Shown here in pieces: positions 9,428-35,427 of a stretch of 64,000 nt of DNA. The notes below the pieces were generated by a model. That model was not told the origin of the DNA. It searched no databases and was given only the letters and a program-made list of their open reading frames with translations. The first letter of the stretch is position 1. Every line of letters begins with the position of its first letter. Location: positions 1,736,001 to 1,800,000 of the forward strand of contig NC_065536.1 of NCBI RefSeq assembly GCF_932294415.1, in the 5' to 3' direction. The position numbers and the translations under genes were made by a program. This DNA is from Quercus robur. Its lineage: Eukaryota > Streptophyta > Magnoliopsida > Fagales > Fagaceae.

Positions 9428-9436
9428 GAAGTTGGA
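9428..9436. repeat. Target site duplication of MULE-1, left copy
   Basis: GAAGTTGGA directly abuts the left terminal inverted repeat. The identical nine bases directly follow the right one at 35419-35427. Nine base pairs is the usual target duplication of Mutator-like elements. The target is locally repetitive (GAAGTTGGAAGTTGGA on the right), so some chance of coincidental matching exists. Confidence 0.9.
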
Positions 9437-9575
9437 GGCGAAAATGGGTAATTACCCATCAAGATGAAACTATTCAGTTAGTTGGCCCGGTTTTGAAAGA
9501 AATTGGGAAACTAGCAACTCGAGCCTCAGAGGCTCGATTTTGGGCCCCTAAATCGAGCCTCTGAGGCTCGGTTTA
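9437..9575 (+). repeat. MULE-1 left terminal inverted repeat
   Basis: These 139 bp are the reverse complement of 35280-35418 with 7 mismatches by eye (about 95% identity). The outer end contains the perfect 16-bp palindrome ATGGGTAATTACCCAT. Similarity continues loosely further in as a series of palindromic CGAGTCTC...GAGACTCG motifs. Terminal repeats of MULEs usually carry transposase binding sites and promoters for the genes inside. Confidence 0.92.
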
Positions 9576-9810
9576 GGTTGTTTGATGTGGCAAAAATCCA
9601 CGTGGCGTTTACATGAAACTCGAGTCTCAGAAACTCAAGTTCCACGTAGATGCCACGTGTTAAAATCGAGTCTCTGAGACTTGGTTTCAGTTTAAGTAAA
9701 CCGAGTCTCAGAGACTCGAGTTTTAAGCAAAAAAACGCGCGCATGTTTAACTTTGAAACCGAGTCTTAAAGACTCGAGTTTTAAGGCAAACTGAACTCGA
9801 GTCTTATATA
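9515..9810. repeat. Palindromic CGAG-CTCG motif array, left cluster
   Basis: About seven copies of a 21-23 bp near-palindrome of the form (A/C)(T/C)CGAG(C/T)CT..AG(A/G)CTCG lie at about 9516, 9551, 9617, 9663, 9697, 9757 and 9795. Each ends in a run of two or three T's or starts with AA on the opposite side. The same motif is clustered at 14.60-14.90 kb and in the right end (35.16-35.34 kb), and I noticed it nowhere else in the window. It is a candidate binding site for the element's own transposase or a hairpin-forming end structure. Confidence 0.8.
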
Positions 9811-10345
9811 AATGTATTTATATAAATATTTAATTATATAGTTGTAGCTTTTGTTTAGCTGGGAATGTTTTGTGGTTTAAGGTTCTAGTTCTTTGAGATT
9901 AATAAGCTTTTTGAGGCTCTCATAGTTGGATAGTACATGGTATTTGCTTTTTGTTATTTGAGCATAGGTATAAAGGTGTTTATGTATTTGTGGCTGCATA
10001 CCTTTGGCTTAAAAAAAAAAAAATACGTATATATATTTATATTTATATTTATATGTATATTTATACAACTATATAATTAAATATTTATATATACATATTT
10101 TTATTTATATATTTATAAAACTATATAATTAAATAATTAAATATTTATATAAATATATTTATATTTATACAACTATATATATAAATACTTATATAAATAT
10201 ATTTATATAAATATATAAATATTTAATTATATAGTTGTATAAATAGGCTAAATATAAATATATTTATATAAATATTTAATTATATAGTTGTATAAATAGG
10301 CTAAATATATAAATATATTTATATTTATATATTAAATTAGATGAT
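9811..10345. repeat. AT-rich leader with A/T minisatellite
   Basis: Between the left terminal repeat and the transposase frame, 10018-10345 is almost pure A/T. It contains tandem and inverted copies of a unit with TTTAATTATATAGTTGTATAAA, repeated at about 10060, 10120, 10220 and 10275. The stretch probably belongs to the 5' leader or leader intron of the transposase gene. No coding sequence is seen. TATA-like sequence is abundant, so a promoter cannot be pinpointed. Confidence 0.6.
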
Positions 10346-10807
10346 ATGTCTAATTTGATTGATCATGATTATATTCACATTAGTGTTTTTTTTTTCTTTT
10401 TTTGTCTGATGAACCCTGCTCTATGTTATTTCATCAATAGTAGTGTAATAGGGTATGGCATTAATTTAAAATTACTTGAATGATGTTGTTACATAATTGC
10501 ACTCATTCATTTGCACATCCTCATGACTTTTGTTGTTTGGTTTGATATTTTTATTTATATTTTTGTTAGAGCTGAGTTTCAATTTTGTAATGGGGGTGAG
10601 TTTTGTCTTCAGTTTTTTTATTTGTTTGAGTATGAAATTATAATGATTGAGTGTGTTTGTATGTGATGTGGGGTGAGTATATGCAATTGTTACACTTTTA
10701 GAAGTTGCGATTCTTGTACTTTGAGTAGATAGAAAAGGTTTTGTAATTGATGTTAAATCAAAGAGATCAAATATGTCACTAACATAAATTTACTTGGCTC
10801 TCTAATA

Positions 10808-13800
10808 GGTTCACAATCTTTGAAGAATATTGACATAAATGTATACTTTGGTGGACCCCTTTACAATCCTGAAGGGATTGACGGATTTCCATTTAGAGGG
10901 GAGGGTATTGAATGCTACTACATGATGTTACGTCGTAAGTTGAAGACGTTGACTGATTTGAAGAGGAAAATAATGGACGAATTGAAATTGAACCCTGCTT
11001 GGTATGACATCAAGATTATCTATCGTTACCCACAAGAAGTTCTTCATGAACGGATAAATTACGGGTATATGGCGATTAAAGAAGATAAACATGTAAAGAT
11101 GATGTTTAATAGGATCCAGAAAATGTCCCAAGTAAATGCTGCTGAGTTGTATGTAAGTTTGGAGGCGAGTGTAGACAACAGTACTGAGGTGGTGCAAGAA
11201 ACATCTACGGCTTTACAATTTACAACCCTAGATAATGGATGCACTACAATGGGAGGGTATGCAATGGGAGGTTATACGCTCCCATCTCAAGATTATGTTG
11301 CAAATACTGGTGAAACCCTCTACTCTCAAGAGACACATTTAGAGGAGGAAGACGAAGATCATGCTGCGAATGATAACATAAATAATGATGATATGGATCA
11401 GTACGAAGAGAGGATTGAGCAAGGTGACTTTGAGAACGATGTGGATGAGCATGAAGTCGTTCCTAATTTTGAAGAGGAAAATATGGAGTACCATGATGAA
11501 GGTGATGCAGATGATGATGATATTGGTGTCCAGCATGATACAGATACGACCATTGGCTACAGAGCTCCTGCGGACTCATTCTACGCAAATACTTGGGAAG
11601 ATATGGTTGATCCTTCACTTCTTCAGATACCATTTCTTTGTACTTGGCAAGATGGGATGCATTTTTGTAAAGGGTTGACTTTTGCAAATAAAGCTGCGGT
11701 AAAGCGTGCATTGATAATATACGCAGCAAAGGATAATAGAAATTTCTCCATCCAAAGGTCGAGCACAACTCAATTGTGCGCCGCATGCGTTGACGACAAC
11801 TGCAAGTGGTACGTTGGGGCATACATGAAGTCTAAATTGAATGGTCTGTGGATGGTCACGTCTTATGTGGGTCCACACAGTTGTATACTCTTTGGGCTGC
11901 GAAGAGACGGTAGAATGATGGATTCTAATTTTGTTGCATCAGAAATTGTGGGAAGATTGCGAAAAAAGCACACTGCTACTATTGATGAGCTTTGGGAGAT
12001 CATACGTACTAAGTATGATCATGAGCTTTCTTACTATAAAGTATGGGATGCATTTTTGTAAAGGGTTGACTTTTGCAAATAAAGCTGCGGTAAAGCGTGC
12101 ATTGATAATATACGCAGCAAAGGATAATAGAAATTTCTCCATCCAAAGGTCGAGCACAACTCAATTGTGCGCCGCATGCGTTGACGACAACTGCAAGTGG
12201 TACGTTGGGGCATACATGAAGTCTAAATTGAATGGTCTGTGGATGGTCACGTCTTATGTGGGTCCACACAGTTGTATACCCTTTGGGCTGCGAAGAGACG
12301 GTAGAATGATGGATTCTAATTTTGTTGCATCAGAAATTGTGGGAAGATTGCGAAAAAAGCACACTGCTACTATTGATGAGCTTTGGGAGATCATACGTAC
12401 TAAGTATGATCATGAGCTTTCTTACTATAAAGTATGGGACGCAAAACAAAAGGCAATTGCTAAGATTTTTGGGGATTGGGAGGAGTCTTACCAAAGGTTG
12501 CGAAAGTTGTTGTTGGCATACTTGGATCAGGATTCGGGTACCCAGTATAGCTATCACACCATACCTAAGCCATTAGAAGGTACTACGTTACTGCGCTATG
12601 TATATTGGGCATTCGCTCCATGCATTGCTGCATTCCAGTATTGCAGGCCAGTGATCAGTATTGATGGAACTCATTTATATGGTAAATACAAAGGGGTATT
12701 GATGATTGCAATGGCAATGGATGCTAATCAAAAGGTTTTGCCTATCGCCTTTGCTGTTGTGGATAAGGAGTCAGGGGCTAGTTGGGGGTGGTTTTTAGAG
12801 TGTCTCAGGACTTCGATAGAGCGTGTTATTGAAAACAAGGACATTTGCATTATTTCTGACCGACATAAAGGTATCAAATGCGCCATTCGAGAGTGGCCTA
12901 GAGGGCAAGACGGAAGAGAACGGGTATATCATCGATATTGCCTTCGACATGTTGCTAGCAACTTCAACACACACTTTGATAACCCGACTCTAAAGGCATT
13001 GGCCTTGAAAGCTGGATATGCGACTCATGATGCTAAATTTGTGTCCATAATGCAAACCATTAAGGAGGCCGAGATTAATTTACTGAGGGGTGTAGACCCT
13101 ACTGATCGCCGGATTATACGTTATATGCCATACACATATCTAATGAGTGAGGATGAAGACAAATGGACCCAGTCATATGATGGTGGAAGACGTTACGGGG
13201 CAATGACAACCAATATCTCTGAGTGCTTTAATGGGGTTCTTAAAGGTGCCCGCGGTTTGCCCATTGCTGCAATGGTTGAGTTCACTTTTTTTAAACTTGT
13301 TGCATATTTCCATGATCGACATAAACAAATTACTTCTGATCTCTCTCGAGGTAAGGTGTGGAGTGATTATGCAATGGAGATCTATAACAAAAATGAGCAG
13401 AAAATTGCAGGACACACTCTGAGGAATTATAATCATGCAGAGGGTATATATCAAGTGGTTACCCCATATAACGACCATAGAGCTGGAGGGGGAAATCACA
13501 GTCATGATGTGCGCATATTTGATAGAACATGTGGTTGTGGAAAGTGGCAAAACTTGAAGATCCCTTGATCACATGCAATTAAAGTTCTTAAAGGTCTGCA
13601 TCTCGATGCGCCCAGCTATATTGACCCATGTTACAGTCTGAACAACGCCATTCTCACATATTCACATAATTTTGTGGTGCCAAAGTCAGAGTCATTATGG
13701 ACAGACGTTCGCGGACCACGGTGGGTGCCTGACCCACAATTGTTGCGGGCCAAAGGTCGTCCTACGATGTCAAGAATAAGGAATGAAATGGATGGGGTAC

Positions 13801-13949
13801 GGCGAGAACGGGGAAGCCGGAGGGAAGATCCGGAGTTGAGGGAGATTCAACCGAGGCAACGATGTAGAGTGTGTCATCAAGAGGGGCATAACCGTAGATG
13901 CTGTCCCAATTCCCATGGGGCTTCGACAAGTGGTAGTGCTATGAACTAG
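10808..13949 (+). pseudogene. MULE-1 MuDR-type transposase, broken
   Basis: A splice acceptor (AATAG) ends at about 10808 and coding sequence follows; the true start codon is not certain. In order there are an N-terminal PB1-like region (NVYFGGPLYNPEG), an acidic linker, a MuDR DNA-binding region (GMHFCKGLTFANKAAVKRAL), a MULE transposase core with catalytic aspartates in ISIDGTHLYG and CIISDRHKG followed by HRYCLRHV, the start of a SWIM zinc finger (DRTCGCGKW), and a CCHC knuckle (CRVCHQEGHNRRCC) near 13863. Two lesions break it. A 391-bp tandem duplication (391 is not a multiple of 3) splits the frame after about codon 410. A TGA at 13566-13568 replaces an expected SWIM cysteine, beyond which the same frame stays open to 13949. 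Transposases of this family cut and paste DNA in the nucleus. As it stands this copy cannot make a full protein. Confidence 0.9.
11653..12434 (+). repeat. 391-bp tandem duplication inside the transposase
   Basis: The segment 11653-12043 is repeated at once as 12044-12434. It covers the whole MuDR DNA-binding region up to SYYKVWDA. I noticed a single difference between copies (CTCTTTGGG versus CCCTTTGGG), so the event is recent relative to the terminal repeats. The period of 391 shifts the frame. Confidence 0.95.
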
Positions 13950-14590
13950 GCAAGTGCCGTCACTGTTTTTATATAATATACTCAGAATGTCATTTGGTTT
14001 TTGTTCTTTGCATTTGGAAACTAATAACCGTATTTAATGTTTGTCAGGCAAGCGGAGACTTGATTTTCGTAAGTGACATTGTACGTGGGACTTGTCGTGA
14101 TCTTCTGTATGGACAAGCTAGGTGATTATGTAGAGTATGTTGTATCAGTATGGACAAGTGTTAGGTGAATATGTATAATATGTTATATCAGTATGGAGCT
14201 TCCGCTAGGCGAATATGTAGACTATGTTGTATTAACTTAGTTGTTATTTTGTTTATTGTTGTAAATTACGGATAATTGAACTATTTGCTATCCATTTTAC
14301 TCGTTACATTAGTTGCGTGATGCAGCTTTTTCCTATAATACGAACAATGATATTACTTTGGCAAGTTGCCCTTCTAGTATTGAACTGCCATTGTGTGCTA
14401 AGACTTTTTGTCGAACAATAATTTTATTGAATAGTTACTGTTTTAATCTGGTTGTAGAACTTTAATGTATGCTCCGTTCGCGTATCACAGCGTATGTAGT
14501 TGTTTGATGTGTTCTGGACCCTGGAAAATTTGCTGCAGGGGAGAAAATTAATTCTGGTCCATGCACCTGCGGCAAAAAAAAAAAAAAATT
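13950..14590. other. Transposase 3' region, no gene
   Basis: After the zinc-knuckle frame stops at 13949, the sequence contains repeats of a GTATGGACAAG...AATATGTAGA-type phrase (14110-14230) and AT-rich sequence. It is probably the 3' untranslated end of the transposase gene. No open frame of interest is seen. Confidence 0.5.
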
Positions 14591-14945
14591 TCCCAGTGGA
14601 ACTCGAGTATCTTATACTCGATTTCCATAAATAGAAATCGAGTCTCTAAGACTCGATTTCCATTTATGGAAACCGAGTATAAAATACTCGAGTTCTACTG
14701 GGAATTTTTTTTCCTTTTTAATTTTGCCCCAATTTGGTGACCTGCGGCCAAAAAAGAAAAAAAAATTCCCAGTGGAACTCGAGTATCTTATACTCGGTTT
14801 CCATAAATGGAAATCGAGTCTTAGAGACTCGATTTCCATTTATGGAAACCGAGTATAAGATACTCGATTTCTATAAGTAGAAACCGAGTCTTAGACTCGA
14901 TTTCCATTTATGGTAACCCCATTTCTACTGGGATTTTTTTTTTTC
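14590..14945. repeat. Palindromic CGAG-CTCG array, internal cluster of MULE-1
   Basis: About seven palindromes of the family seen in the terminal repeats (at about 14598, 14636, 14669, 14776, 14811, 14845, 14881) lie in two near-identical halves. Each half starts with an A-run and CCCAGTGGAACTCGAG, and the halves are inverted internally (GGAAACCGAG / CTCGATTTCC). This looks like the subterminal end of a MULE of the same family, but no copy of the outermost GGCGAAAATGGG end follows. It may mark the original right end of a smaller autonomous element, or a second element end nested within MULE-1. Confidence 0.75.
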
Positions 14946-15741
14946 AATTTTTTGTTATTACCCCATTTGAGAACTAATTTCAGGTAATTTTTTACTAAAC
15001 CGCCAACATCGAAGAGTAAAGTAAATCCAAAAATATAACTGAAATGAACAAAATAAAATTATACAATCTGGTTTATTTGTTTTCAACTGCCAACATCTAA
15101 GTAACCCAACCCTGTAAATCCAAAAAAAAAGAAAAAGAAAAGAAAATCAACATCTCATGTCTTCACAATCCAACAATACACAAAAAGCACACATTCAGTA
15201 TAATTTCATATCACATTGTAATGCACAAACTATAAGCAAGAAAATTGAGTGGAATATTAAAAGTTCAAACTTGTTCTTTTAATTTTATTTTGAATATAAT
15301 TGAAGTTCTAACTCTAATTAGCTCATTTACAACCACTACATGGTAGGATTGATCCCTGAGTGCTATGTCTCATGCTACAGCTACACATGCCCAGAAAACT
15401 AAGCCACATGTGCTTGTCCACTAAGCACAGATTTTTAATTATCATTCTGGTCGTCTAACCAATAGATTGATAACAGATTGACAGTCATTGTCTACGGACA
15501 TTCTTGTCAGATACTTGAAGTAAAACACATATTACATAAAAATGTATCACAATAAGAATATTTAACAAAATAAACAGAGATGCCAGTGGTATTTAAAAAA
15601 CTTCAACAAAGTGTGGGCACCCCCATGTGGCTTTTATATCCATACAAAGAACAGAGCTGTTAGCTGTGTGTGAAGAACAAAGCCACGGATCAATTATATT
15701 CAGGGTGGTGGAGTGAAACAAAACATTAACATGGAGACACA
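14946..15741. other. Non-coding, partly RPT6 3' untranslated sequence
   Basis: AT-rich sequence without a recognisable gene. The right part directly follows, on the minus strand, the stop codon of the RPT6 C-terminal exon at 15742 and is probably captured 3' untranslated sequence. The boundary between transposon and captured sequence lies somewhere in 14.95-15.7 kb. Confidence 0.4.
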
Positions 15742-17200
15742 CTACTTCCATAGCTTCCGCAATGACATGTTTTTCTCGGTCTCCTTCTTCATTACCTTTG
15801 CCACTACCATCTCAAAATCTTCTTGTGTTACATCAACCCTCCTCTCCCTCAGAGCAAACATCCCAGATTCTGTGCACACAGCCTGCAGCAAACAAAATAA
15901 ACGAAAAAAGGAAGAAGGGATAATATGATTATGCACAGAGAAAACACACAATCTTTCACTTCTGAAGACTTTAATAGCCCAGTGCAATAGGTCGTTATGG
16001 AATTAACAAGACAATACTTATCATTCTGTCCAAATCCATCGAAAAGAGTTGAGATTGTTTAAATTGAATAAAATACTGGCAATCTTTACAAGAATGAAGC
16101 CTATTTTGACATGCTTGCCAAATACTTACAATAAGAGATGAATCTGTTTAAATAGTTGAGGTCACAATAAAGAAAAGTACCAAAAACTAAACAACCCAAT
16201 CTGCATAATGAAAACACACACGATACCTTTATTTTATTTGATGCTTCAAATCCATCCAGCTGGTTGAGAAGCTCCAGCATAGTCCGCTGCACTTCACTGT
16301 CACCATTGCCACTACCAGTTTAAATGCAGAAAGTAAAAGGGTACACGAGGCAAACCTCCTTTATCTCTTTAATTTGCTGGTCAAGACCGCCAATCATGTC
16401 ATATGTGGAATCTGGAACCTTTTCAACTTTCATGAGGTTGACCAATGGATCAACTTTGCTTGGCAAGATTAAATGAAGCACATAACTGTCATTATGGAGA
16501 GCAACTCTTGTTGATGGAGTTATCTTGGTGATATCGATATTTTTATCAATGTCAACAACATATTTCCGTTCAATTGTAAGATTGTAAACAATATGAAACA
16601 TTAGATAAAAATGTATTCAAAAGGGTACACGAGGCAAACCTCCTTTATCTCTTTAATTTGCTGGTCAAGACCGGCAATCATGTCATATGTGGAATCTGGA
16701 ACCTTTTCAACTTTCATGAGGTTGACCAATGGATGAACTTTGCTTGGCAAGATTAAATGAAGCACATAACTGTCATTATGGAGAGAGCAACTCTTGTTGA
16801 TGGAGTTATCTTGGTGATATCGATATTTTTATCAATGTCAACAACATATTTCCGTTCCATTGTAAGATTGTAAACAATATGAAACATTAGATAAAAATGT
16901 ATTCAAAAGGGTACACGAGGCAAACCTCCTTTATCTCTTTAATTTGCTAGTCAAGACCGCCAATCATGTCATATGTGGAATCTGGAACCGTTTCAACTTT
17001 CATGAGGTTGACCCATCAACTTTGCTTGGCAAGATTAAATGAAGCACATAACTGTCATTATGGAGAGCAACTCTTGTTGATGGAGTTATCTTGGTGATAT
17101 CGATATTTTTATCAATGTCAACCACTAATTACACTTCTTCAATTGTAAGATTGTAAACAATATGAAACATTAGATAAAAATGTATTCAAACTGTTTTCAA
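15742..17200 (-). pseudogene. RPT6: 26S proteasome ATPase RPT6 gene fragment
   Basis: Three separate exon pieces of the AAA-ATPase RPT6 (26S proteasome regulatory subunit 8) are recognisable on the minus strand. The C-terminal exon (15742-15882) ends in MSLRKLWK and a normal stop. An internal exon at about 16228-16318 reads [19 protein letters not shown]. An upstream exon (about 16357-16600) reads [17 protein letters not shown]...[21 protein letters not shown]. The exon with the Walker A P-loop is missing, as is the N terminus. The upstream exon and its flank are present three times in tandem. RPT6 unfolds substrates at the proteasome base; this copy cannot. It is captured cargo of MULE-1, with intron sequence retained, so it came from genomic DNA and not from mRNA. 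Confidence 0.9.
16339..17195 (-). repeat. Three tandem copies of an RPT6 exon unit (about 285 bp)
   Basis: Units begin with GGGTACACGAGGCAAACC at 16339, 16623 and 16909, giving periods of 284 and 286 bp. Each contains the [10 protein letters not shown]...QQIKEIKEV exon plus flanking intron. The copies differ by a few substitutions and small indels (for example a 2-bp insertion in the second and a short deletion in the third), so only the first is open throughout. Confidence 0.93.
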
Positions 17201-18175: not shown

Positions 18176-18841
18176 TAAGATTCATTCCAAGAAGGTTCGT
18201 GGTAGGCACCCCAACTTTCCTTCATCCAATTGATTTTCCTTCCTTTCACTGGCTTCTCATAGCTGCACAATAGAAATACTTATAATACTTAGCAAGAGGA
18301 ATTGTTCATCAAATTCCTATCAATTTGAAAGTCATTGTTCAAATGGAAATATGAATAGCTCCAAAAGATCTTACCCATCAAAAAAGTCAAAAGAACTCTT
18401 GAATTGATCAGGCAAATTGAGAAGTGAAAAGTCTTCGAAGGTCCACGGTCCCTGTTAAGCTATGTTATGAATGCAAAAAGCAACCTGCCATCATTTGTGA
18501 AGCTGTGTTAGATCCTAACAAATAGAAATTCCCAAGTTGACCACAATTCTGTAGGTAACCCAGATCAGCGCAAGGACACCTTACCTTGGCATTTTTATAG
18601 AGTACCCTTGATTTGTACTTTGTTTTTAGGTAGCATGGAAGAAGAGCAGTGTGCCAATCATTGGCAATGAAGACAACATCCTCCCCTGCAAGAAGCAGAA
18701 AAGAACATCCTTAATGAAGCTATTTATTTTAAGACACTTTAAGTTTAAGAAACAGAAAATGGTTCCAATGTCCACACCATATGGTCCAGAGAAATGTTCA
18801 CTACTTTTTAAGTTCAGAACCCTTGGTGCCTCCAGAGCAGC
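18176..18841 (-). pseudogene. GBSS: Granule-bound starch synthase gene fragment
   Basis: Four consecutive exon pieces of a plastid granule-bound starch synthase lie on the minus strand: [21 protein letters not shown] (from 18841), [21 protein letters not shown] (about 18686-18585), VAFCIHNIA...FEDFSLLNLPDQFKSSFDF (about 18482-18373), and YEKPVKGRKINWMK (near 18263). The order and the exon joins with GT-AG introns match the family, which makes amylose from ADP-glucose. A stop replaces the usual Tyr in HNIAYQG, and both the ADP-glucose-binding N terminus (KTGGL) and the C-terminal domain are missing. This is captured cargo of MULE-1 with introns kept. Confidence 0.88.
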
Positions 18842-18966
18842 CTGAAATTTATAAGAGGGGAAAAAAGACATCGTTTTTCAGCTATCTACTCAATGTCTGA
18901 AATGTTAATAACTATATGTAAATGAGGTGTTAGTACAAGGCGCATCTTACAATTTCAGATTCTTAC

Positions 18967-19545
18967 CTCCAAGCAAGCATCGGCCAGACCTTTGTTATTA
19001 TTCAGTGCATAAATCACATTGGACAATGCAAACAAAGACTGGTTGATCTTGGCACTCTCTAGGAGACGAATTCCTTCATTGCAGGTCCTTCTATTATCTT
19101 CATTACCTGTTTAAATTACAGGCAGAATTACACAAATCAAAATTTGGGAAAGACCAGAAATAAACCCCTCTTTTAGTCTTACGTACAGTTGAGCTATGAC
19201 CCTGTAATTGCACAACTTAAAAGAGGAAATAACCTGCCAAGTCTATAAGGTTCAGCTTCCCAGTAACAACAGCCTCAGAGCCATCACCATAAGGAGTAGA
19301 AACGGCAATCACTAGCACCCCATGGCTCCTACTAGAGACATCGTTAAGCCCGGTGTGCGCGATTTTCCTCCTCTGAATCCCACAAGAAAATATCTCATAG
19401 AATTCAGACATCGACTTCACAGGGACCTGAGATAGTCCGCGGAGATGAATTTGCCCGTTTTTATCATCCAAAACTGCAATTTCCTTCCCCTTGAGCTCTA
19501 AAAGATCGTAGCACCTGTCCATATAGACCTCATGACAACTGTAAT
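18967..19545 (-). pseudogene. Kinesin motor-domain gene fragment (KIN-10-like)
   Basis: Two exons on the minus strand are correctly joined across a GT-AG intron. The first (about 19545-19234) reads EVYMDRCYDLLELKGKE...NDVSSRSHGVLVI...GKLNLIDLAG, which contains the switch I (SSRSH) and switch II (DLAG) motifs. The second (19106-18967) reads [34 protein letters not shown]. The SRSHGVLVI wording resembles the KIN-10 class of plant kinesins. The P-loop exon, neck and tail are absent, and after YALNNNK the sequence continues with residues not typical of the family. No stop is seen inside the two exons. Captured cargo; not a working motor. Confidence 0.85.
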
Positions 19546-19624
19546 ACAATGAATAAAGTCGAAAATCATACAAAGTGAAACCCAATAGAGGTAACTTTAA
19601 TGCTAAAAAACTCTGCACAGTGAC

Positions 19625-19705
19625 ACAACAACTTACTGCAAGAGCCTTAGCTGAATCTCCTTCAGTTAAAATGAAGGTACATTTATCAGCCACCCACATT
19701 AAAAG
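19625..19705 (-). pseudogene. TOP2: DNA topoisomerase II exon fragment
   Basis: A short minus-strand piece reads KCTFILTEGDSAKALA, the conserved EGDSA (TOPRIM) motif of type II topoisomerase, where the Glu coordinates magnesium. Only this roughly 25-codon segment is recognisable. It abuts the kinesin piece without a natural gene boundary, so it is one more captured fragment. Confidence 0.75.
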
Positions 19706-20714: not shown

Positions 20715-23700
20715 CTTGAGATTCCTAACTTGGTGCGGGCATCCAGCAGGTATAAATACTGCTTCCCCAAGCCTTTGCACAAAGGTCCACGGTTCAACAC
20801 CTACAAAAGTGAAGTAATTGTGTAAATAATCATGCAAGGGTATCACTAAAATATTATTGCATTTTTATCATACTCACCAAATTCTTCCTTTAGCTTCCTT
20901 TTGTGCTCCAAAGTTAAATAAAAGGATTGGTCATGAATTGGGTGGACAACCTAAAAAAGCATTATCTATCAGAGACTGCACATGAGACATGGCTAATCAG
21001 AAGCTTAACTTGCTAATAAGTTACCTGTTGAGTGACAGGTGAACAATAGGTGTGCCTAAATTCGTTTGCATGCTTTCTAAGATATGCCTCTAATTGAGGA
21101 ACATCTTCCCTCCGAAAAATGTCCCATAAAGCACTGCCTGTTTCTTCTGTTTCTTGTTCTATGGAGAAACCAGGACAAGTAGCCCCTTCTATGTCACTTT
21201 TTGACATCTCAATTTTACCATCAAAATCAGATGGATGCTTGCTCATATCTGCAATTTCTAGGACCTCCATGTCCTCACCGTTGCTATGAACAAGTTTTTC
21301 AGTTGGACAACTTAACTCCTCTCGATCTAGACGCTCCTTCCAATCTTGGGCCCTATGCCTTTCTTTTAAGGTTGCAATTGCTGAGCGCTGCTTGTCACTC
21401 AACACTACTTCTGCTGTATGTGTCAAAATATTCACCTGCATTAATCAACATTGGAAAAAACATGTAACAACGTTGCTTTCATAGTACCAAAAAAAAAAAA
21501 AAAAAAAGGAAAAATTTTTCCACATCCCATTTCTATAAGGAAATTGTATTTTATCACATGTAGCAATTGTAGAGTATAAACAATTATCAAATAACACAAT
21601 TTGGACCATTAACTTAAAAGAATACAAAATTATTGACTACATGGCCAAAAAGGACACTTGCAAAATGATTATTCACATCTATAATGTTTATAAGAGCCCA
21701 ATATTCACATGTTCAGACATTGTTAGGAAGTTTTAAATCAAAATTGACCAATGCTTACAGTCTTCACCAAATACACTGCATTTAACATTCCATTTTAAGT
21801 TACTCTGTTTACACACAGTTACAGCTAAGCAAGCCTTATAACAGAGTTTCTATATATTTTAAAAAAGAATTCTAAATATTAATTTCAATAACCACATTTG
21901 AAATTGTTAAAAGGAAAAAAATTAGCAGGAAAAAATATTGATAGTTTTGAAAATATTTGTGCATGCGCAAAAAGCCAACAAAAACTGTTCCTTGACTCCA
22001 AAATATAACTAAATTGCACTTTTTATATCCCAAAGTCTATGACAGTTTGAAATGCAATGTCACGTGCTACAAGTCATATTGTTATAACATACCGCATCTG
22101 ACATATCACAATGAAGCTTAGTGACAGAGTCCCCTCTTCCAAGCTCCTTTGCGAGCCCATATCCGATATATGTTTTTGGACCCAGGTCTGGTTTCAACAC
22201 ACCAGGAGGCAACTTGACAGCTAAGTTAAGGAGGCCTGACCTAGGATCTGTGTACTCTTGAAATGGCAATGCACGGATAAATTCATCACAATGATGGGGC
22301 AAAAAATCCTCGAACTTGTTAGAGGGGGGCCAGTCCTTTAGTTTAAGCATCTCAGGCCAAAAGTTATAGTATGTTCTACCTTCCATATAGCCTTGAAAAA
22401 ATTCACGGGTCTTAATCTCCACCTGCATATTTTAACAAAATCAACATTGGAAGTACAAAATTGAGCAGGCATAACCTAGTAGGATAATAATATATTTGAG
22501 CAAAAAAAATAATGTTTCAATTAAAAGTCCAGAAAATAATGGATTTTGAAAACATAAGAAAGTGGTATAATGGGTGCTTGTGTGATTGGGGTGTGTGTGT
22601 GTGTGTGTGCGAGAGAGAGAGAGAGAGAGAGAGAGATGTATGTTAGAACAAAACAAAAGACAAAGAATAAATTCCACACTCAAGAACTATAAAACCAAAA
22701 AAATCCTACAATTACTACATGGAAAAAGAAAAGAAGATTATATGATTTAACACATGAAATCAAACAAGTAATACTGACAGACAGTCTTTGGCTGAGAAAT
22801 ATAGAAGTGCAGAAAGGGGAAAGGTAACTAAACCTCACAACCAGCCAGGCAATCAATGGCCTTCATTTCTGACATTTTTGAGCTGATATCCAAATCCACA
22901 CTTTCACATAACGCACGCCAGATGACCATTGGCTCCCAGCTTAAACCAGCTGTCTGTTCAAGAACATCACGAACAATAACTGGTTCACCTTTAGTCCAAC
23001 ACTGTTGGAAGTGCAAACGCTCTTCTTCTAGAAGACTGTCCCTTGAAGATGGACAGTACAAGTCATTGTCATCACAATCTACTCTAGAAGCTGCTCTTCG
23101 GAAAATCTTCATGCTCTTTCGAGTACATTTATGCTTAAAATTTGTAGGTTGAGCTCTAAACATCTCCAATAAATTTCCTGCTTTGATTTCTAAACTTGAA
23201 ATCCACCCCAGTGGAAGGATACGCCTGAGCTCCAATACACATTCACCACACCCACCAATTTCCTTTGGAGCACAAGTAACACTTCCATCACCATTGGCAC
23301 TCCATTTGATAAAGGACTTAACATGTTCCTTACAAGTTTTTAAAAGACATGATTCGGGTAGAGGATCTCCACCATGCATGTAGTCATAGCCCTTGTTGAT
23401 GTATTGAAACTTCATTTTGCCACGGCTTGTAAGACTTTCCTTTCGAATTTCTTCACAGCAACTGAGACAGAGTTCATAAGAACATGTTGGGCAGCTTCGA
23501 TGAAGGTCTACAATTGAAGTTGCACAATGATTGCTGCTCCAAGGCCAATAAAAAAAGCATTTAAAACAAACATTGCAATTAGCACCTCATAGAATTATAG
23601 AATTTCATAAAGAATAATAGTTTCTTACCAAAAGATACGCTCATCATTATAACAAATGGTTTGTTGTACTTCAATTTCAGAATATGATTTCCCTACCACA

Positions 23701-25828
23701 AATATTTTCCGTAAGCAATGTCTACAATTCAGAATATATGAAACATGAATGTGCTTTAATAAAAAGTGTATCAGCAGAACACATCATGAGCAGAAAATGG
23801 CACCAACCATTAAATCAGTTGTTTTATTGTCAGCTTCAGAAGTTCCAACACTTGCATGCTCAGTCATTGTTGCATCCTGTGTTCCAGATGGCTGTCCCTC
23901 TTCTTTTTCTTGTTTAGAAGTCTCCTCTGCAGCCTTTTTAGCAGCTGCTTCTTGCCTCGCCCTCTCTTCTTCCATTGAAACTCTCAGAGCAAGAGCCAGT
24001 TCAGGATCCAGGTTGGGATCCACACCAAACTCAAAACCAGTGACTCCACCAGCTGCAGCTGCAGCTGCTGCTGCTGCAAAACCACTTCCACCTTCCCCAT
24101 CCCCAGTGAAGATGGGTGTACTACCATTGGATAAAGGAAATTTAGAGTTTAAATCATAAAAAATAAATTATAAAATCAAAACTTTAATCTATAAAATAGG
24201 GAACAAATTAAATCCCAACCTTATAAGTACATCAGAAAGAGCATTAGGGCCAGGTGGAACATGTACAATGTGGCTAGTGTCATTGTTGTTAACGGCAGCA
24301 AGAAGTGCATCCAGCTTCTCTGTCTTCGCATCATCTTCTTCACCGAAATTTACAATATCAAGTGCTACACTGTTCTTTTTTAACTTTCTTCCAATAGACT
24401 CCAATGTCTTTTTCTCTTGTTTGATAGGACTGAAACCACAAGATATGAAACGATGAAAATGTAAGAGCCAGAAAAAAAAAATGAAAAAACATAATGAAGC
24501 ATGACTGTAAACACCTTCCAGCAAATACAATAATCCTTTGTTGCTATTTTTTATTTTGGCGATGCTTAAGGGCCAACTGCGCCACCTGAATGCCAGCAGC
24601 CAGGTCCATCTCGCCACCTATTTCTAGACCTACATTGAAAGAGAAAACAAGTCACTCTAACACAGTTTATCTATACTGATTTTAGAAAGAGAGTAGAATT
24701 GGGTTGTCTCAACTTTTGATTTTCAAAGAGTCCTTATTAAATAAATAGTTAAAAACAAAAGGATAAAAGTTAAGACAAATAATAACAAAAACAGTAGTGG
24801 AGAGATGGTTATCGTTTAAAATTAAATTGTCCAAAGCCAATGAGCTCTACCTCAACTAGCACCTCCTCCTCTTAATACAATTCATGTTTCATATATGATT
24901 TAATGGTTGGTCCCTCTTTGAAGTCTGAAGGTTAGAAAGGTTAAAAATCTAATCAGAGCAAGCATTTGAAGAAATTTACAGCAGTGAGATAAAAAAATTA
25001 AATAAAATCAAAGACAAAACCTTAATCATCCCACTTGAGTGCAAGCACACATTACAGTTGCAGTTTCTACGGCAAAATGGGCAAAGCATCGAAACTTCTT
25101 CTTCTTCTAAGTGGGGGTACCTATACACACACAAAGAGCAAGAATGATGAATTAAAACAGGGGGAAAAAAGAACATCTCAGCAGAAAAGTTGAATGTACA
25201 AGGAATACCATACCATTGCTTGATACACTGGATGCAATACATTTTCTTCTTACACTTAGTGCAAGGAACAACAACAAACTTTTTCTTCATACACTGATGG
25301 CATTTTAAGCGATCTTCTCCATTACCCTGTTTACGACAATAATTATGAATACTATGCAGTGAATGAAGAAAAAAACTAAAAGAACTAATTCCTTCAATGG
25401 AATTGGAATATGAAGATACATATAGGTCTACTATGAAAAAGGCATAGAGAAAAGAAGCTACATTCACATTTATTGGACTGCATCTCTCCTTGCTTCCAGT
25501 ACACACATTACCATTCCTTGACTCATAATTTTTCTCTCTTGCATCATCTGAATTTATTTCAGTCATCACACTATCCAAATTCCTAATTCTTTTCCGTGAT
25601 CTCGCCTTAACAAGAAACATTGTTTCTTCATCTTCTTCAAACTCGTCGCTAAAACAATCATCTTCAGAATAAAATTATATGTAGATTAAAATAACAAATG
25701 ATGCAAGGAATAAAATTGCAACAAAAGCATTTAACAACCAACACATGTTGGGTTACCTCCATTGTCACATTTAAGAACCATATCCTTGTTGGAATATCTA
25801 CCTCCAGCTAATGTCCTTATTTGAGGCA
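20715..25828 (-). pseudogene. JMJ25: JMJ25-type (KDM3) histone demethylase gene, captured, lacks its 3' end
   Basis: About ten minus-strand exons are recognisable: about 25828-25755 (MPQIRTLAGG), about 25660-25468, about 25328-25205 (CHQCMKKK...C..C, RING-like), about 25120-25022 (CPFCRRNCNCNVC), 23629 to about 23727, 22834-23533 (NHCATSIVDLHRSCP.CSYELCL.CC), 22093-22422, 21025-21435, 20878-20950 and 20715-20800. The JmjC iron ligands are all present: His and Asp of HCD at 22105-22113 and His of GCPHQVRN at 20733-20735. Family members (Arabidopsis IBM1 is one) remove methyl groups from H3K9 in the nucleus. I see no stop or frameshift in the last six exons, and all joins are GT-AG in phase. 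The final coding exon after RNLK is missing, as is the exon between NVCLHSS and SEIEVQQ, where an RPN10 piece now lies. It sits inside MULE-1 and so is cargo; a chimeric transcript is possible. Confidence 0.85.
23806..24630 (-). pseudogene. RPN10: 26S proteasome ubiquitin receptor RPN10 fragment
   Basis: Three minus-strand exons of RPN10 (26S proteasome non-ATPase subunit 4) lie within the JMJ25 piece. They are GEMDLAAGIQVAQLALKHRQNK (about 24630-24525, with a TAG soon after), PIKQEKKTLESIGRKLKKN...VPPGPNALSDVLI (about 24430-24220), and [11 protein letters not shown]...[22 protein letters not shown] (about 24120-23806). The last contains the first ubiquitin-interacting motif ([13 protein letters not shown]). 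The first part of the VWA domain, the later UIMs and the C terminus are missing. It has the same orientation as JMJ25 and replaces one of its exons. Two unrelated proteasome subunits (RPT6 and RPN10) are thus in one cargo block. Confidence 0.88.
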
Positions 25829-25934
25829 TTCACCTAGTTCCAATAATGTACGTTCAAACCATATTGAAAACAAAAATAATCTTATTGAAATGTGAAAAGA
25901 GAAATAATAATGGAATAAAGTGTGTTGTTTCACA

Positions 25935-28900
25935 TTAAGCTTTCAGATACCTTTTTTGAATCTTACGCCGTCTCGTATAATGAGGAGGAGGTCTTGCATG
26001 TCCTTCGTCAGATGCCTCGGGCCCAACATTGTGTCCATGTTTGTGCCCCCCTGTCCCACACGGAGGTGCCTTTGATATGCGTTTAGGCCGACCTTCAGCC
26101 TCTGTAGGTAACCCAACCGCCTGCTCAGCCTGAACATGGGGTGGGTCAATGGCTGAAGAAGGGGTACTAAACGAACTATGGGAGGGTGGCTCCTGCTGCA
26201 TGTCAGGTGGGGTACCCAGGTCAAAGGATGGAATGGGTGACAGCTGAAGAAATGACTGTGGGGTGGGTGGACGGACGTCAGAGCCAGAACAAGGAAGTGG
26301 GGTGGGTGGAGGGATGGTGGGGCAAGGAGATGGATGGGGGGTGGGTGAAGGGATGGTGGGCGTAGGGGCTGGATGTGGGCTAGGTGAAGGGATGGTGGGC
26401 GTAGGAGCTGAATGTGGGTTGGGTGAAGGGATGGTGACGGTAGGGGATGGATGTGGGGTGGATGAAGGGATGGTGGGGCTGGCGGATGCATGTGGGGTGG
26501 ATGCAGAGGGATCGGGGGTAGGGAGAAGCTGAGGGGTAGCAACAGGCGGACGGGATTGACATCCGGCCGGAGCTGTGCTCGTGCTTGGGCCGGTAGGCAT
26601 AGCTGCCTCCTCAATCGGGGCCTCAGGGATAGGAGTTTGGACACGTGTCATCGCCTGCACTGCCGTCAGCACCTCAGTAATGTCATTGTGGTCCTCCGTG
26701 CCCACTGGATGACGCCTCAACAAACGGACGTATCCTTCAATCTGCACATGAAAAGACCACACATATTAGACCTGCAATACGAAATCAACAATGCGAATTG
26801 ATAATAAAATAAATGTTGGTTATGCTACTAAAAATTGCAAATTAAAGGGAGATGAAGTGCTAAGCAAAAAATGTAGTAACAAACATCATGCTCTCTAAAC
26901 AGTGGTTTCATGGTAAGAAACACGGTAACTTGGGTTAGAAATAGAGAAGTTACCAGCAGAGTCACTACAGCACCAGGCCTATCGATGAACCTCCGAGTCA
27001 CCCTTTTGAACCAGTCGTGGTACTCGTGCTCTGGAGGCATATCACCAAGCACTGCTTCACAACGCCGATAAAAGTGATTACCCCACTCAAGGATATGCAC
27101 AGCATGTTTCTGCATCCAATTAACACCGATCTTCCCCCTCAAATCAATGCCATGAAGCACTCTGTCAGTGTTAACAGCTTCGGGAATTTCTTGGATCATC
27201 CCGAATTGACGAACAACACGATCCGGTGTATGTTTCTCTACTAGGTGGAAACATACAAGCGGCACCGTTGCCATCCATACGGCCCTCCCTGCAACACACC
27301 ACGGCGGGAGGTCGTCAAAATGAGCTTCATATGGCTGCCACACCACCTACAATAGCCAAAAAAAAGTACACAACACATTAGGGAACAATGTTTATATTTC
27401 AAAGTTCACAAAACCTATATGGATGTTCGTAAAAGCGTAAAATAAGGCATTTTCATACCTGGTCTGGCAACATGGAAGCTAGTTGCTCGTGATACCTGTC
27501 CCTGAAAATGTGGGCGGGCCTATTTTTCTTGTTTGGGACCCACAACCACCTACAATCAAGAAGAATGGATCAATAAGTACTGAGATAATCTTAAAACTAT
27601 AATGTAATCACATATATTAAATATGAATATAATACTAAAAGCTGAAACGTAGCAATTAATGTTAATTGGATGTTAAAACTAAGATATTAAACTAATTAAT
27701 AATATCAATATCAATATAAAACTTATGAGTCTGTTAAAACTAAGATAATGTAATCACATATAACTACTGAGATAATCTTAAAGATATTAAACTAATTAAT
27801 AATATCACTGGAATAAGAAACGGCCCTTTTAAAAGACAAAGCACAAACCAGCTATATTGAGAGTCACAAAATTATAGTAGATTAACATAATCAACTACAT
27901 TGGACCTCGGTTTCAAATGTTGTTATGTTGACATAAAAAATTGCTAGAAGCCTTTAAAATCAATAAATAAAATCAAGTTACATGATTGTGGAGTTGGTAA
28001 TGATCAATCCAGAATGATAAGTGTTATTGGACCCCAATGTTTCTGTGTAGTTCATGATTGGGATGAAACAAAGGAGAAAAATCAAGATTTGGGTGGCTGT
28101 GAACAGAAAAATAAAGAAAAGATAAATTCCTTGGCATCACACGAACCGTAACCGTCTGTAACTGTAGACAAAGCTTCTTAGCTCTTAAGTCTGAAAATAT
28201 ATTTTTCCTCCCCCAGTAGAAAGCATTAGAACCCTTTAAATAGAAGTCTAATACCTTTTCCTAGTTGAAATAGGATTTCTTAAGACCCAGTCACTTGAAC
28301 TCCTTGGGCTTTTGCTACTAAGCCCAACTAAATAACTAGACTTAAATAAAACCCAAAATAAGACCTAATGGACTATTAGTACAGCCCATGTCTAGAATTT
28401 AGGAAATTACAAAATTTCCCCTGGCACAATCAAATAAAATATAAAACTGAGATTGGCTTTCCTTTGCCTGCATCATGCCATTTGTTCAAGGATTGGAAGT
28501 TTGGAAATTAGTCTCAATTGCCATTCTCAATATAGTCAAAGTTGCAACTGAAGAAGATCTTTTAATGAAACAAAGACTCTAAAGAGGTGGAAGCTGCTAA
28601 TGAAGTTGAAATTGAAGAAACAAGAGTATAAAAAACGCAAGGGAAAGGCAAAGAATATGGAGGCCGAAGCGTCTTATTCCCAGTTCATGTTGCATATGAA
28701 AGAAAGGTTCTGTTGCCTGCACTAACTTTTTCAAGATATTGATTTTGTCATATTGAAAAGTTGAATGGTTTAAGTGGATTAGTGAGTGTATCATTATCAT
28801 CATTGCTACTTAAGATGAAGAAATAAAAGGAAATTTAAATTTGATCATTTTATTTTAAGTCAAGGATGTACTTCAAGAAACCAAGATTTCTCTTACTTCA

Positions 28901-30249
28901 ACACTTTAAAACTCGAGGGCAAGTTTTCTCTACCAGGAGAGAATGACGCAAGTAGCAAGCTAATATCATTTTAATTTTAGGTGTTATGACCAATGTATAA
29001 TTTTTTGGTTTTTAGAGATGGGTTGTCCTAATAGTCTTATTTTGAGTTTAGTTATTTAGTTTGGGCTTACTAGTAAAATCCCAAGGAGTCCAATTCTCAT
29101 GTCCCACTAGAAGTGGAGTAGGCATTGGTGATCTATCATATGGATGTCATGCTTTCTATTCAGAAAGAGGATTAAGTCAGAGTACAAATATCTAAAAACC
29201 CCTAATTTCTTTAATAAAATAAATATTCATCTCCACAGTATGTTATAGCAGTATGAGGTAGAGACTTACTTCAGGGATAGTGGACCACGTACTGGAGGAC
29301 CGTAAGCACCCACTGGCGGGCCTCGCTCAACTGTCGGGCACAAATAGGGGAACCTGGCCCATGCCCAGTACTGGAGCAACAGCAAGCACCCACCAATCTG
29401 ACTGGTGTCCTCGCTTGCCCTGCATAGCTCTCGATACAACCATGCAAGGCAAGCACTTCCCCAACTGTACCTCTGTGGGTTGTGAAGGTCTTCCAACTGC
29501 TGCACCCACATTAGATGCACCCTATCGCCGGATTTGTCCATGAATATTGTGTCCCCCAATAGCGCTAGGATGTAGCATCGTGCGTACTTATGCAGCTGAT
29601 CCTCTTCAGCATCAGGCGGCAATGGGTTAGCAACTTCCTCCAAAAGGCGGTTGATGAGAATCCTCTGCCCATCAAGTTGCTTATGGTTGTTTTGAGTTAC
29701 AGGTCGAAAGCCAAGGAAGTCCCGGCACACATCCACCCAAGTTTTTTGTGTGCTCCCTGTTATAGCCTCACCATCAACAGGAAGCCCGAGAAGAACCTCC
29801 ACATCCTGCAATGTGATGGTCACCTCACCATGTGGCATGTGAAAGGTGTGAGTCTCGGGCCGCCATCGCTCCATTAAGGCCGTTATGAGGCCATTGTCAA
29901 TCTCACTACCCGGGACCCACAGGAGTCCCTCCAAACCAACTGTGGTGATGATGTTCCTCACTCGGTCGTCCACCATTGGAGGTTGCTTGGAGAACTCTGA
30001 ACTACGACTACGGCAGGTAATGGACCCTGGATCCTGCACATAACATCTCGTTATGGATTAATATAGTATATGCAAATACGTGTACATTGTATGGATTAAA
30101 TGCATGTGCACAAGTAAATATTTAGTTGAGTGTTTTACCCGCCCATTCCAAATAGCTTCGGACCGATGCGTCGCCTGCTGTGACAACACCGAGTCGTCAA
30201 TGGATCCAGGCTATGTATAGTCAATGCGTCCAGCATTTGCAGCAGCCAT
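25935..30249 (-). CDS. Plant mobile domain (MAIN-like/aminotransferase-like PMD) protein in MULE-1
   Basis: Five exons with GT-AG joins in phase: 30139-30249, 29270-30033, 27459-27549, 26954-27346 and 25935-26741 (2,166 nt). Exons 2-4 encode the plant mobile domain: GLEGLLWVPG, RWRPETHTFHMPHGEVTITLQDV, LLGLPVDG, CLAWLYRELCRA, WAWARFPYLCP, FRDRYHEQLASMLPDQ, VWQPYEAHFDDLP, VVRQFGMIQEIP. Exon 5 is a proline-rich tail with a 15-residue repeat ending in a basic KIQKRYLKA. PMD proteins are nuclear; the cellular members MAIN and MAIL1 help repress transposons, and many PMD genes are transposon-borne. An acceptor directly precedes the ATG, implying a leader intron reaching toward the right end of MULE-1. 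An in-frame TAG at 30211-30213 interrupts exon 1 after 12 codons; a Met in exon 2 (MVDDRVRN) could restart. The rest of the frame is open. Confidence 0.88.
26265..26535 (-). repeat. 45-bp coding minisatellite in the PMD gene tail
   Basis: On the minus strand a 15-codon unit of the type TIPSPxPHPxPTP is repeated about four to five times with substitutions, giving a proline/threonine/serine-rich linker. Such coding repeats change copy number easily and would vary between copies of the element. Confidence 0.85.
28000..29200. mobile_element. Decayed Gypsy-type LTR element pieces in PMD intron 3
   Basis: Intron 3 of the PMD gene is 1.7 kb long. It contains two related LTR-like pieces in opposite orientation, about 28000-28400 (-) and about 28980-29150 (+). 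They are matched around a TTAGTTATTTAGTTTGGGCTT-type segment. Just before the right piece is a stretch resembling the 3' end of Gypsy-type internal sequence. The element is fragmentary, old relative to the PMD exons, and contributes no coding sequence. The family is inferred from the typical end sequence only. Confidence 0.5.
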
Positions 30250-33200: not shown

Positions 33201-34690
33201 CTCGTAGATACTAGTTTGCCCATATTGAGTGCAATTTACTTAAAGTGTGTGGATTGAGAACACTTAGGTGTTCATAACCTTCCCATTTTTTTCCCTATAT
33301 TGAATAATGGTCCAAAGCCACACGTAAGTGGATTGGATCCATATGATATTGCAGTAAGACATAATCTTAAATGGAGGATATTTTGACTTTTCTCTATTTT
33401 ATTTTATTTTATCCCTTCGGAATGAGAAATCTTATGCAAAAGTTTGGTAAAAGAGGAATGCCGATGTAGACAAATTGTGAAGTAGCTAATGACTGATCAA
33501 AAACAAAAAAAATAAGAAGGGGAGAAAAAAATAAAAAAAGAAACAAAAAAGAAGTGGCTAATAAGCCAAATTCTAATGACAAGTTGACAACGCTAGTAAA
33601 GATAGCATTTAAAGTGGTGTTGATACAACTTTGGTGATAATTGACAAATCATGCTTATACTTGAAAAATAATATGATGTGACACATTATTTGTGTTTTAT
33701 ACTAATATTAATGACCAAGAAAAAAATTTGTTGACTTTTCCATAGCCAACTTAGAACCCAGTTCTAAATCAGACTAAATTGGATGAGATATGCTTGTTTG
33801 AACATCTAAACTTTCTAGAGATATTGTTGTCCAATTCTGCTTTAGAATCAGTTTAAATGGGCCAAGAATCTTGTAATTTAGTGACATTTCCTTATCTCTT
33901 TTATAAGGAAAACAGCGTTTAAATCCCCCTCAATAATTGAATAGGGTTTAGGTTTTGTTTTCAAAGAGGCATTTGGTTCCTAGAGTTCAAAAGCACCCGT
34001 AGCTTAAAGCCGTAAGTTCTATGTGCTTTGTTCACCGAATCAAAGCCACCCAAATATGCAAAATCGATTCTAGATACCTAAAACCAATTTATGCCAAGCC
34101 AGCTAACGTAAACAAAACTTCTAACCAAAATCCCTTAATCAAAACTAAATCTAATCCATCTATTTAAACTAATTAAACAAAACCATTCCTAACCGAAAAA
34201 CTTAAATCATAACCAATCAACCAAAATACATAACTGAAAAAAGACTATGTAATTTGTTTCTTCAATAGCAAACTACTAAGTGCTTTTTTATATGCATATA
34301 ATTTAGTAATTTGTAATGGTACGCAAGCATAAATATATGAGATAACTATTTCATATAAACTTGTAAGTTCTAAGCTCCTAATAGACAAGCAAATGGGCCT
34401 AATGAGATATACAATTCTCTCGTAAAAGCTATAATCCTAATCAGCAATAACAATCTAACCTGAAGGCAGAAATTTGGAAACTCTTAAGGATGGCAGCAAC
34501 AATATGCACTATCTAAGCAACAATGTCATCTGCACTCACCAAATCCAGACCCAAATTTCATAAAAATCATAAAATAAAAATTAAATAAAGTATCTACCGC
34601 AAAATCCAAACCCAAATTTCACAAAAATCAAAACTGAAAATTAAATAAATAACCTAGATGTTAAGTATCCAAATCCAAACCCAAAATTTC
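30250..34690. other. Long non-coding interval of MULE-1
   Basis: AT-rich sequence with no recognisable coding exon on either strand. Open frames at 31743-31937 and 31930-32190 show no family. The acceptor just upstream of the PMD start (TTCTTCTTCAG before 30250) suggests this could be a long leader intron of the PMD gene, transcribed from the right end. Alternatively it is captured intergenic DNA. Confidence 0.4.
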
Positions 34691-35160
34691 ACATTAATCA
34701 AAACAAAAAATCATATAAATAACTTACCAACCAAAATCGGAATGGGTATGGGTATGGGTATGGTGAGGAAAAATGAATGGGTATGGGGGTGGTAATGAGA
34801 GAGAGGGACAAAAGGAGAAAGGATCTCCTAGTGAGGGAGAGAGAGATCGATGAGGAGAGGAGCCGATGGCTGGGCTCAGCCTCGTCGGCGTCGTCGCTGG
34901 GCTGGGCTGGGCTCTGCTCGTCGACGCCGGCGAGGTTCTGTGTGTGTGTGTGAGCGTGTGTGAATGTGAGAGGCCGTGTGAGAGATAGAGAGAAAATGAG
35001 AGAGTTTTGTGAGTGTGGGAAATGAAACTGTAAGACTGAGGGTGAGAGAGTGAGAGCGCTCTGGTTTGTGTGAGAGTGAGAGGGTGTGAGCGTGAGTGTG
35101 AGTGAAAGTGAGACAAATGCAATAGACGAAGACGTTAATTTTGAAAAACCCCAATTGGAA
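34691..35160 (-). promoter_or_regulatory. GC- and CT-rich leader next to the right end of MULE-1
   Basis: On the minus strand this stretch is CT-rich (TCTCTCACTCTC runs) and contains a GC-rich segment at 34860-34935, in sharp contrast to the AT-rich surroundings. Together with its position just inside the right terminal repeat and the leader-type acceptor at the PMD start, it is a plausible promoter/first leader exon for the PMD gene. An open frame at 34698-35294 on this strand is low-complexity and I do not regard it as coding. Confidence 0.4.
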
Positions 35161-35340
35161 ACCGAGTCTCTAAGACTCGATTTCCGGTTGGAATACACGT
35201 GGAAATCGAGTCTAAGAGACTCGATTTCCATGTCAATGCCAGATGGCAACTCTGCCACATCAGACATGGTCAAAGCACGTAAACCGAGCCTCAAAGGCTC
35301 GATTTAGAGGGCCAAAATCGAGCCTCTGAGGCTCGAGTTG
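35160..35340. repeat. Palindromic CGAG-CTCG array, right cluster
   Basis: Four palindromes of the same family as at the left end lie at about 35161, 35204, 35283 and 35316. The outer two match the two outermost left-end palindromes as part of the terminal inverted repeat. Confidence 0.85.
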
Positions 35341-35418
35341 CTAGTTTCCCAATTACTTTTAAAACCGGGCCAACTAACTGAATAGTTTCATCCTTATGGG
35401 TAATTACCCATTTTCGCC
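35280..35418 (-). repeat. MULE-1 right terminal inverted repeat
   Basis: Reverse complement of 9437-9575 with 7 mismatches in 139 bp. It ends ...ACCCATTTTCGCC at 35418 and is directly followed by the second target duplication GAAGTTGGA (35419-35427). Confidence 0.92.
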
Positions 35419-35427
35419 GAAGTTGGA
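35419..35427. repeat. Target site duplication of MULE-1, right copy
   Basis: GAAGTTGGA, identical to 9428-9436. Beyond it the sequence continues AGTTGGAAATGG, a CCAACTTCC-rich leader on the minus strand that matches the few bases left in front of the NBS-LRR start codon. Confidence 0.9.

Follow-up and report, generated by a model that had tools for sequence, protein, structure and literature searches.

Gene-capturing Mutator-like elements (MULEs) are usually described as short and free of a transposase gene. The element described here, from Quercus robur, spans 26 kb and holds transposase sequence together with pieces of host genes. It lies in a 64,000-nucleotide stretch of contig NC_065536.1 (positions 1,736,001 to 1,800,000), called the window below, to which all coordinates refer. 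For MUDR-group MULEs, Dupeyron et al. 2019 (PMC6446971) report a group 50 with 'PMD in antisense for most of them', terminal inverted repeats (TIRs) of 30-320 bp and duplications of 9-10 bp; MULE TIRs are typically 100-500 bp long (PMC3310237). Pack-MULEs (Jiang et al. 2004, as described in PMC6431247 and PMC8903248) contain host gene fragments between MULE ends. Kaonashi and the Ulp1-carrying VANDAL-type MULEs are non-TIR elements with coding genes that acquired one conserved host domain (PMC13317346). PMD itself has been acquired by MULEs from host genes: MULE-encoded PMD-C forms a fusion with the transposase in Amborella and a number of grasses, and its use in anti-silencing is a speculation of that paper (PMC5418596).

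The oak element shares with the antisense-PMD MULEs of the MUDR group a transposase gene and an antisense PMD gene, a likeness that rests on layout, but it also has an 11-kb block of host-gene sequence that those elements, as described in the accessible text of PMC6446971, do not have. Like Pack-MULEs it carries host gene fragments between MULE ends, yet it is 26 kb long and includes transposase and PMD sequences (PMC6431247, PMC8903248). It resembles the Kaonashi and VANDAL-type elements as a coding-gene MULE with acquired host sequence, whereas its captured pieces are varied and truncated (PMC13317346). In contrast to PMD-C (PMC5418596), its PMD is a separate gene that converges on the transposase gene and is followed by host pieces. 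We conclude that the element is a real MULE, exceptionally large but built on a known plan, with much host DNA and with its own genes broken, and that it is probably one of a family that gathers such cargo. A literature search, with subscription papers mostly outside its reach, turned up no earlier description of PMD-MULEs that carry cargo as a family in Fagaceae. An earlier, sequence-only reading of this DNA had raised the possibility of 'a class of its own'; this was too strong for one copy, and the layout of transposase plus antisense PMD had already been published (PMC6446971).

The element occupies 9437-35418 (25,982 bp). Its inverted ends, 9437-9575 and the reverse complement of 35280-35418, were identical at 132 of 139 positions (7 mismatches, about 95%). 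Self-comparison of the window (E up to 1e-5, at least 50 bp) showed that the similarity is weaker beyond these 139 bp and fades by about 250 bp (9437-9688 versus 35418-35158, 83%, E 2e-60). A perfect 9-bp direct repeat, GAAGTTGGA, stands at 9428-9436 and 35419-35427 and touches the outermost bases of the inverted repeat. Direct comparison thus reproduced the 139-bp ends with 7 mismatches and the identical 9-bp flanks that had been noticed before. The long TIRs and a target-site duplication within the 9-11 bp range are those of a MULE.

The ends were also examined by a scan of 9301-35550 for exact direct repeats of 8-11 bp framing 25-bp inverted arms with at least 17 of 25 positions matching. 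Five matches were returned: the outer pair (24/25), two shifted registers of the outer arms, and two inside palindromes at 14.6-14.9 kb. A palindromic 19-mer, TCGAGYCTCNGAGRCTCGA, occurred 13 times in the 64 kb when up to 3 mismatches were allowed and was absent from 100 shuffles. Six of these occurrences lie in the left 341 bp, four in the right 257 bp and three at 14603-14832. No match to Rfam at gathering thresholds was found anywhere in the window, and the exact 23-bp end sequence was absent from a viral contig collection, as expected for plant DNA. Between the left end and the transposase gene, 10009-10340 is low in GC with an 8-bp period.

Both PF10551 and PF03108 matched the transposase gene, mudrA, above cut-off, as for a MuDR/MULE-type transposase. 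A 482-residue mudrA query was 99% identical to Quercus robur LOC126725035, and the next matches were Quercus, Lithocarpus and Castanea proteins. Protein P0001 differs from the mudrA of the window at several residues and so appears to be another copy, allele or gene model. A separate PMD gene on the minus strand faces mudrA on the plus strand, as in the antisense-PMD layout of the MUDR group; in the part of the element from the PMD 5' end to the right end (30.3-34.7 kb, about 4.4 kb), no open reading frame (ORF) tested was above the Pfam cut-off. Tandem repeats of 39 bp were seen at 26258-26561, within the proline-rich tail of PMD.

Neither gene is intact. In mudrA, a 391-bp tandem duplication (11649-12052 / 12039-12443, 99.3%) changes the frame, and a stop codon at 13566-13568 stands beside the SWIM region where relatives have cysteine, so the intact transposase frame of an autonomous MULE is not present. 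In PMD, codon 13 is a stop. A downstream start codon or splicing could soften the lesions in both genes. Pfam matches bore out the earlier description of a transposase and a PMD gene, but its 'autonomous-type genes' are broken by the duplication and the two stops.

The host-gene cargo is spread over about 11 kb that separate the 3' end of mudrA from that of PMD, and all of its host-gene pieces lie on the minus strand, in the sense of PMD. From right to left they are a JMJ29-like gene with RPN10 inside it, a probable TOP2, a kinesin, GBSS and RPT6. Five host genes are clear (RPT6, GBSS, kinesin, RPN10 and JMJ29-like) and one, TOP2, is probable; the 'at least seven host genes' counted previously were not recovered by Pfam, PDB and tblastn matches. 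The further ORFs tested in the unassigned stretches, which were not all of the short ones, gave no match above the Pfam cut-off. The two-sided chance of six pieces on one strand is 0.03, and of the five clear pieces alone 0.06; the shared strand may reflect chance or selection. Host gene fragments between MULE ends are the mark of a Pack-MULE, which is defined without a transposase gene, whereas mudrA sequence is present here, though broken. A candidate PAC4 piece on the plus strand at 18010-18270 (E 0.002) was below cut-off and was left out of the count of captured genes. A hairpin at 19865-20132, with 123-nt arms at 93%, is perhaps a MITE.

The largest piece, the JMJ29-like copy, covers residues 97-236 and 279-834 of the 898 residues of P0122 from Castanea sativa, with 87-100% identity in six stretches, the first of them gapped by introns. 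Residues 1-96, 237-278 and 835-898 of P0122 were not found in the copy by tblastn, and the RPN10 piece occupies the place of the missing residues 237-278. A zf-4CXXC_R1 domain fell just below the Pfam cut-off. Over a 533-residue comparison the copy had 6 unique residues, two of which border exons; the closest homologue had 4 and the Castanea one 10, and this comparison gave no clear sign of loss of constraint. The parts of RPT6 compared with PDB entries correspond to residues 86-162 and 371-404 of the spinach chain, which is 404 residues long; the remaining RPT6 stretches were identified by eye and by alignment to the Quercus lobata protein P0280. One RPT6 exon region, at 16335-17190, is triplicated in tandem, each copy being about 286 bp long and the three about 95% alike. 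In GBSS, the stretches neighbouring 18689-18585, which we take to be further exons, were recognised by eye.

Features of the element and its target gene, in window coordinates
Feature	Coordinates	Strand	Evidence
Target gene, CC-NBS-LRR (NLR) resistance gene	6447..9422	-	PF00931, PF18052, LRR matches
Left target-site duplication, GAAGTTGGA	9428..9436	.	Identical to 35419-35427
Left terminal inverted repeat	9437..9575	+	132/139 identical to reverse complement of 35280-35418
Left cluster, six palindromic terminal motifs	9519..9777	+	19-mer scan against shuffles
mudrA transposase gene, broken	10811..13946	+	PF10551 E 2.2e-17, PF03108
Internal cluster of the palindromic motif seen at the ends, part of a pair of similar hairpins at 14573-14910	14603..14910	+	Three 19-mer matches at 14603-14832; end by eye
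RPT6 (26S proteasome regulatory subunit 8) fragment	15745..17128	-	PDB 8amz_J E 2.2e-39 and 1.1e-13
Granule-bound starch synthase (GBSS) fragment	18178..18830	-	18689-18585: PDB 6gng_A E 1.1e-10, PF08323 E 4.4e-7
Kinesin motor-domain fragment, two exons	18994..19555	-	PF00225 E 4.4e-25; second exon E 3.6e-7; PDB kinesins
Probable DNA topoisomerase 2 (TOP2) exon fragment	19643..19687	-	15-residue match; 4/4 PDB matches topoisomerase 2, best E 0.39
JMJ29-like histone demethylase copy with intron-like gaps	20715..25668	-	tblastn with Castanea sativa JMJ29-like P0122
RPN10 (26S proteasome non-ATPase subunit 4) fragment	23820..24452	-	PDB 8amz_W E 1.3e-28 and 1.6e-38
PMD gene, five coding stretches	25938..30249	-	PF10536 E 4.7e-52 and 1.1e-18; tblastn with Quercus lobata P0241
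Right cluster, four palindromic terminal motifs	35162..35336	+	19-mer scan against shuffles
Right terminal inverted repeat	35280..35418	-	Pairs with 9437-9575
Right target-site duplication, GAAGTTGGA	35419..35427	.	Identical to 9428-9436

Relatives of the PMD protein were examined for similar associations with host sequence. A protein search, scored among the 8000 candidates sharing the most words, returned 499 PMD homologues, of which the best 120 were used. Sorted by name, Quercus, Castanea and Lithocarpus together supplied 88 of them, Fagus supplied 16, and the other 16 were of different or unnamed origin. Among these 120, a precomputed Pfam domain other than PMD was present in 26/88 of the Quercus, Castanea and Lithocarpus proteins, 0/16 of those from Fagus and 2/16 of the others. 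A Pfam scan was run on 30 of the 120, with all 26 fusions included, and PMD positions were taken from BLAST. The host domain was C-terminal of PMD in 25 of the 26 fusions (chance 4e-7, given equal sides and independent rows); because both sides of PMD were open to detection of a fusion, the side is informative. The sole N-terminal host domain was in P0283, which also had a sub-threshold match on its C side. The fused domains were varied and comprised RING, Na/H exchanger, proteasome subunit, P5C reductase, AAA, SOD, RdRP, BSD, IST1, RuvB-like, NOG1 and others. Fusions to mudrA (one, P0117, among 120 proteins listed for the transposase) were not set against those to PMD (26/88; 28/120), because the length limit of the search excludes long mudrA fusions.

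These fusions of PMD with host domains support a cargo-carrying family, and because of them the cargo between mudrA and PMD looks like a family habit. Genes of the 26S proteasome appear to recur as captured pieces, with RPT6 and RPN10 here and with proteasome subunit and AAA-type pieces in the Lithocarpus models P0250, P0261 and P0295; this recurrence may be detection bias.

One relative shares part of the cargo itself. When 41 PMD homologues were compared with 14900-25900 by tblastn, there was a strong match to P0280, a weak one to P0261 (69% over 29 residues) and none to the rest. P0280 combines PMD with a Sec14-like domain, a piece of glucan synthase (below the Pfam cut-off) and the RPT6 exons seen in the window. 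Within the last RPT6 exon, five residues set the window apart from spinach, and all five are found in P0280 too. A PMD tree was built from the window sequence together with those 96 of the 120 homologues that covered at least 110 of 157 columns, 20 of the 26 fusions among them; P0280 was the neighbour of the window, on a long branch in a tree without support values. We read RPT6 as probably an older load of this PMD lineage, the other cargo having changed since. Alternatively, P0280 may represent the orthologous site of this insertion.

The account we favour, and think reasonably probable, is that the element belongs to a family of large Fagaceae MULEs with convergent mudrA and PMD genes, that its host pieces were captured as repair filler, and that it then moved beside the NLR gene. 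The mechanism of gene capture by MULEs is still open (PMC3310237). In the proposed course of events, repair of an excision gap would proceed inward from both ends and switch template to unrelated host genes, which would leave DNA filler; inward repair would also leave the cargo in the middle, between mudrA and PMD. RPT6 would have been gained early, since it is common to the Q. lobata relative, and JMJ29, with RPN10 inside it, would have come separately. Because the coding stretches of the JMJ29-like copy are separated by intron-like gaps, the template for this capture was probably DNA and not RNA. The enlarged element, or most of it, would then have moved to just upstream of the NLR start codon with its own transposase or with one from another copy. 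As a guess, the right end may drive read-through transcripts of PMD and cargo.

A broader proposal, to which we give slightly less than even weight, concerns the whole lineage of large MULEs in Quercus, Castanea and Lithocarpus. The gap between mudrA and PMD would be a recurrent loading site that has taken up pieces of dozens of host genes in the sense of PMD, moved them, and produced PMD chimeras as a steady source of gene combinations. If true, a 26-kb family with transposase and PMD that loads cargo at one internal place across genera would provide a comparative series for junctions, capture order and orientation, and many annotated PMD fusion genes of Fagaceae would be transposon products.

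Several observations weigh against the favoured account or the evidence for it. With both element genes broken, it is improbable that this copy is still autonomous. The flank is itself mildly repetitive (GTTGGAAGTTGGA), which makes the 9-bp match slightly less telling than it would be in random sequence. The internal motif cluster at 14.6-14.9 kb, just past mudrA and far from both ends, is without explanation in the proposal. Among the relatives, the contrast in fusions between the Quercus, Castanea and Lithocarpus proteins and those from Fagus (26/88 against 0/16, Fisher p 0.01) is confounded by a Fagus annotation from another source. The fused proteins come from automated annotation and are viewed apart from their genomic surroundings; the fusions may stem from gene prediction. 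P0338 and P0339, which count as two of the 26, are isoforms of a single gene. The five RPT6 residues common to the window and P0280 may simply be parental, the comparison being with spinach, and P0280 retains a short RPT6 stretch that has no alignment in the window, so that the two pieces are not identical. Finally, we infer both the capture mechanism and the order of captures, as well as the movement of all 26 kb as one unit, the full cargo being known from this one copy. The description of 'one giant element' therefore stands for a single matched pair of ends and its duplication, with transposase, PMD and host pieces between them, but its movement as a whole unit is a step further than these features go.

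The same ends and duplication are expected if the cargo was gained after a smaller element had inserted. A smaller mudrA-PMD element may have inserted here with its 9-bp duplication, some or all of the cargo being added later at the site by aborted repair or other insertions, so that the 26-kb unit never moved whole. The ends and the duplication date the first insertion only, and the JMJ29-like copy looks young by its few unique residues. Against such growth in place, P0280 joins this PMD lineage to RPT6 exons in Q. lobata, and part of the cargo thus probably predates the insertion unless P0280 is the orthologous site; we consider this explanation unlikely, with a real chance of being right. 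Two separate MULEs enclosing host DNA, with their outer ends moving together as a macrotransposon, might have left an old inner end such as the third cluster of terminal motifs, just past mudrA. However, this cluster is the only inner one, with none near 26 kb, no third copy of the outer TIR was found in the self-comparison at the thresholds given, and the middle consists of pieces of at least five unrelated genes instead of one host segment, which makes this origin quite improbable.

A gene-capturing Helitron, CACTA element or Pack-MULE nested within an ordinary PMD-MULE could also account for the cargo, and plant Helitrons can hold as many as nine gene fragments, with lengths of up to 39 kb in maize (PMC6431247). 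Three Helitron-like 3' ends were present in the element, but two were the TIR palindrome and one was a CAG-type repeat inside RPN10; no convincing 3' hairpin with a CTRR end bounding the cargo was found in the element, where degenerate ends could escape. In the scan of 9301-35550, likewise, no TIR pair inside the element was framed by an exact duplication of 8-11 bp, although decayed ends could escape it, and CACTA-type hexamers were listed singly, unpaired. A nested insertion therefore seems very improbable. Repeats commonly cause misjoins in assemblies, and unrelated pieces might have been misjoined between two MULE ends. In that case it would take coincidence to explain both the matched duplication and the joint presence of PMD and host pieces in gene models from other genomes, and we give an artefact hardly any credence.

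MULEs are known to insert near the 5' ends of genes. The NLR gene at the target site is one uninterrupted frame of 991 residues, with 14 bp between its ATG and the first base of the element. The insertion separates this open gene from its former upstream sequence by 26 kb, and its expression may be altered.

Other repeats were seen elsewhere in the window. Pieces of 1-5605 and 41918-45058, two stretches that flank the element, match each other at 74-87% and may represent an old duplication around a possible NLR cluster. A second MULE at 52757-58645 has a perfect 9-bp duplication (TAAAATTAT) and long inverted ends (92%); its transposase lies in two open frames and is about 25% identical to mudrA over longer stretches. 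A tandem duplication of about 823 bp (98%) was found at 48201-49848.

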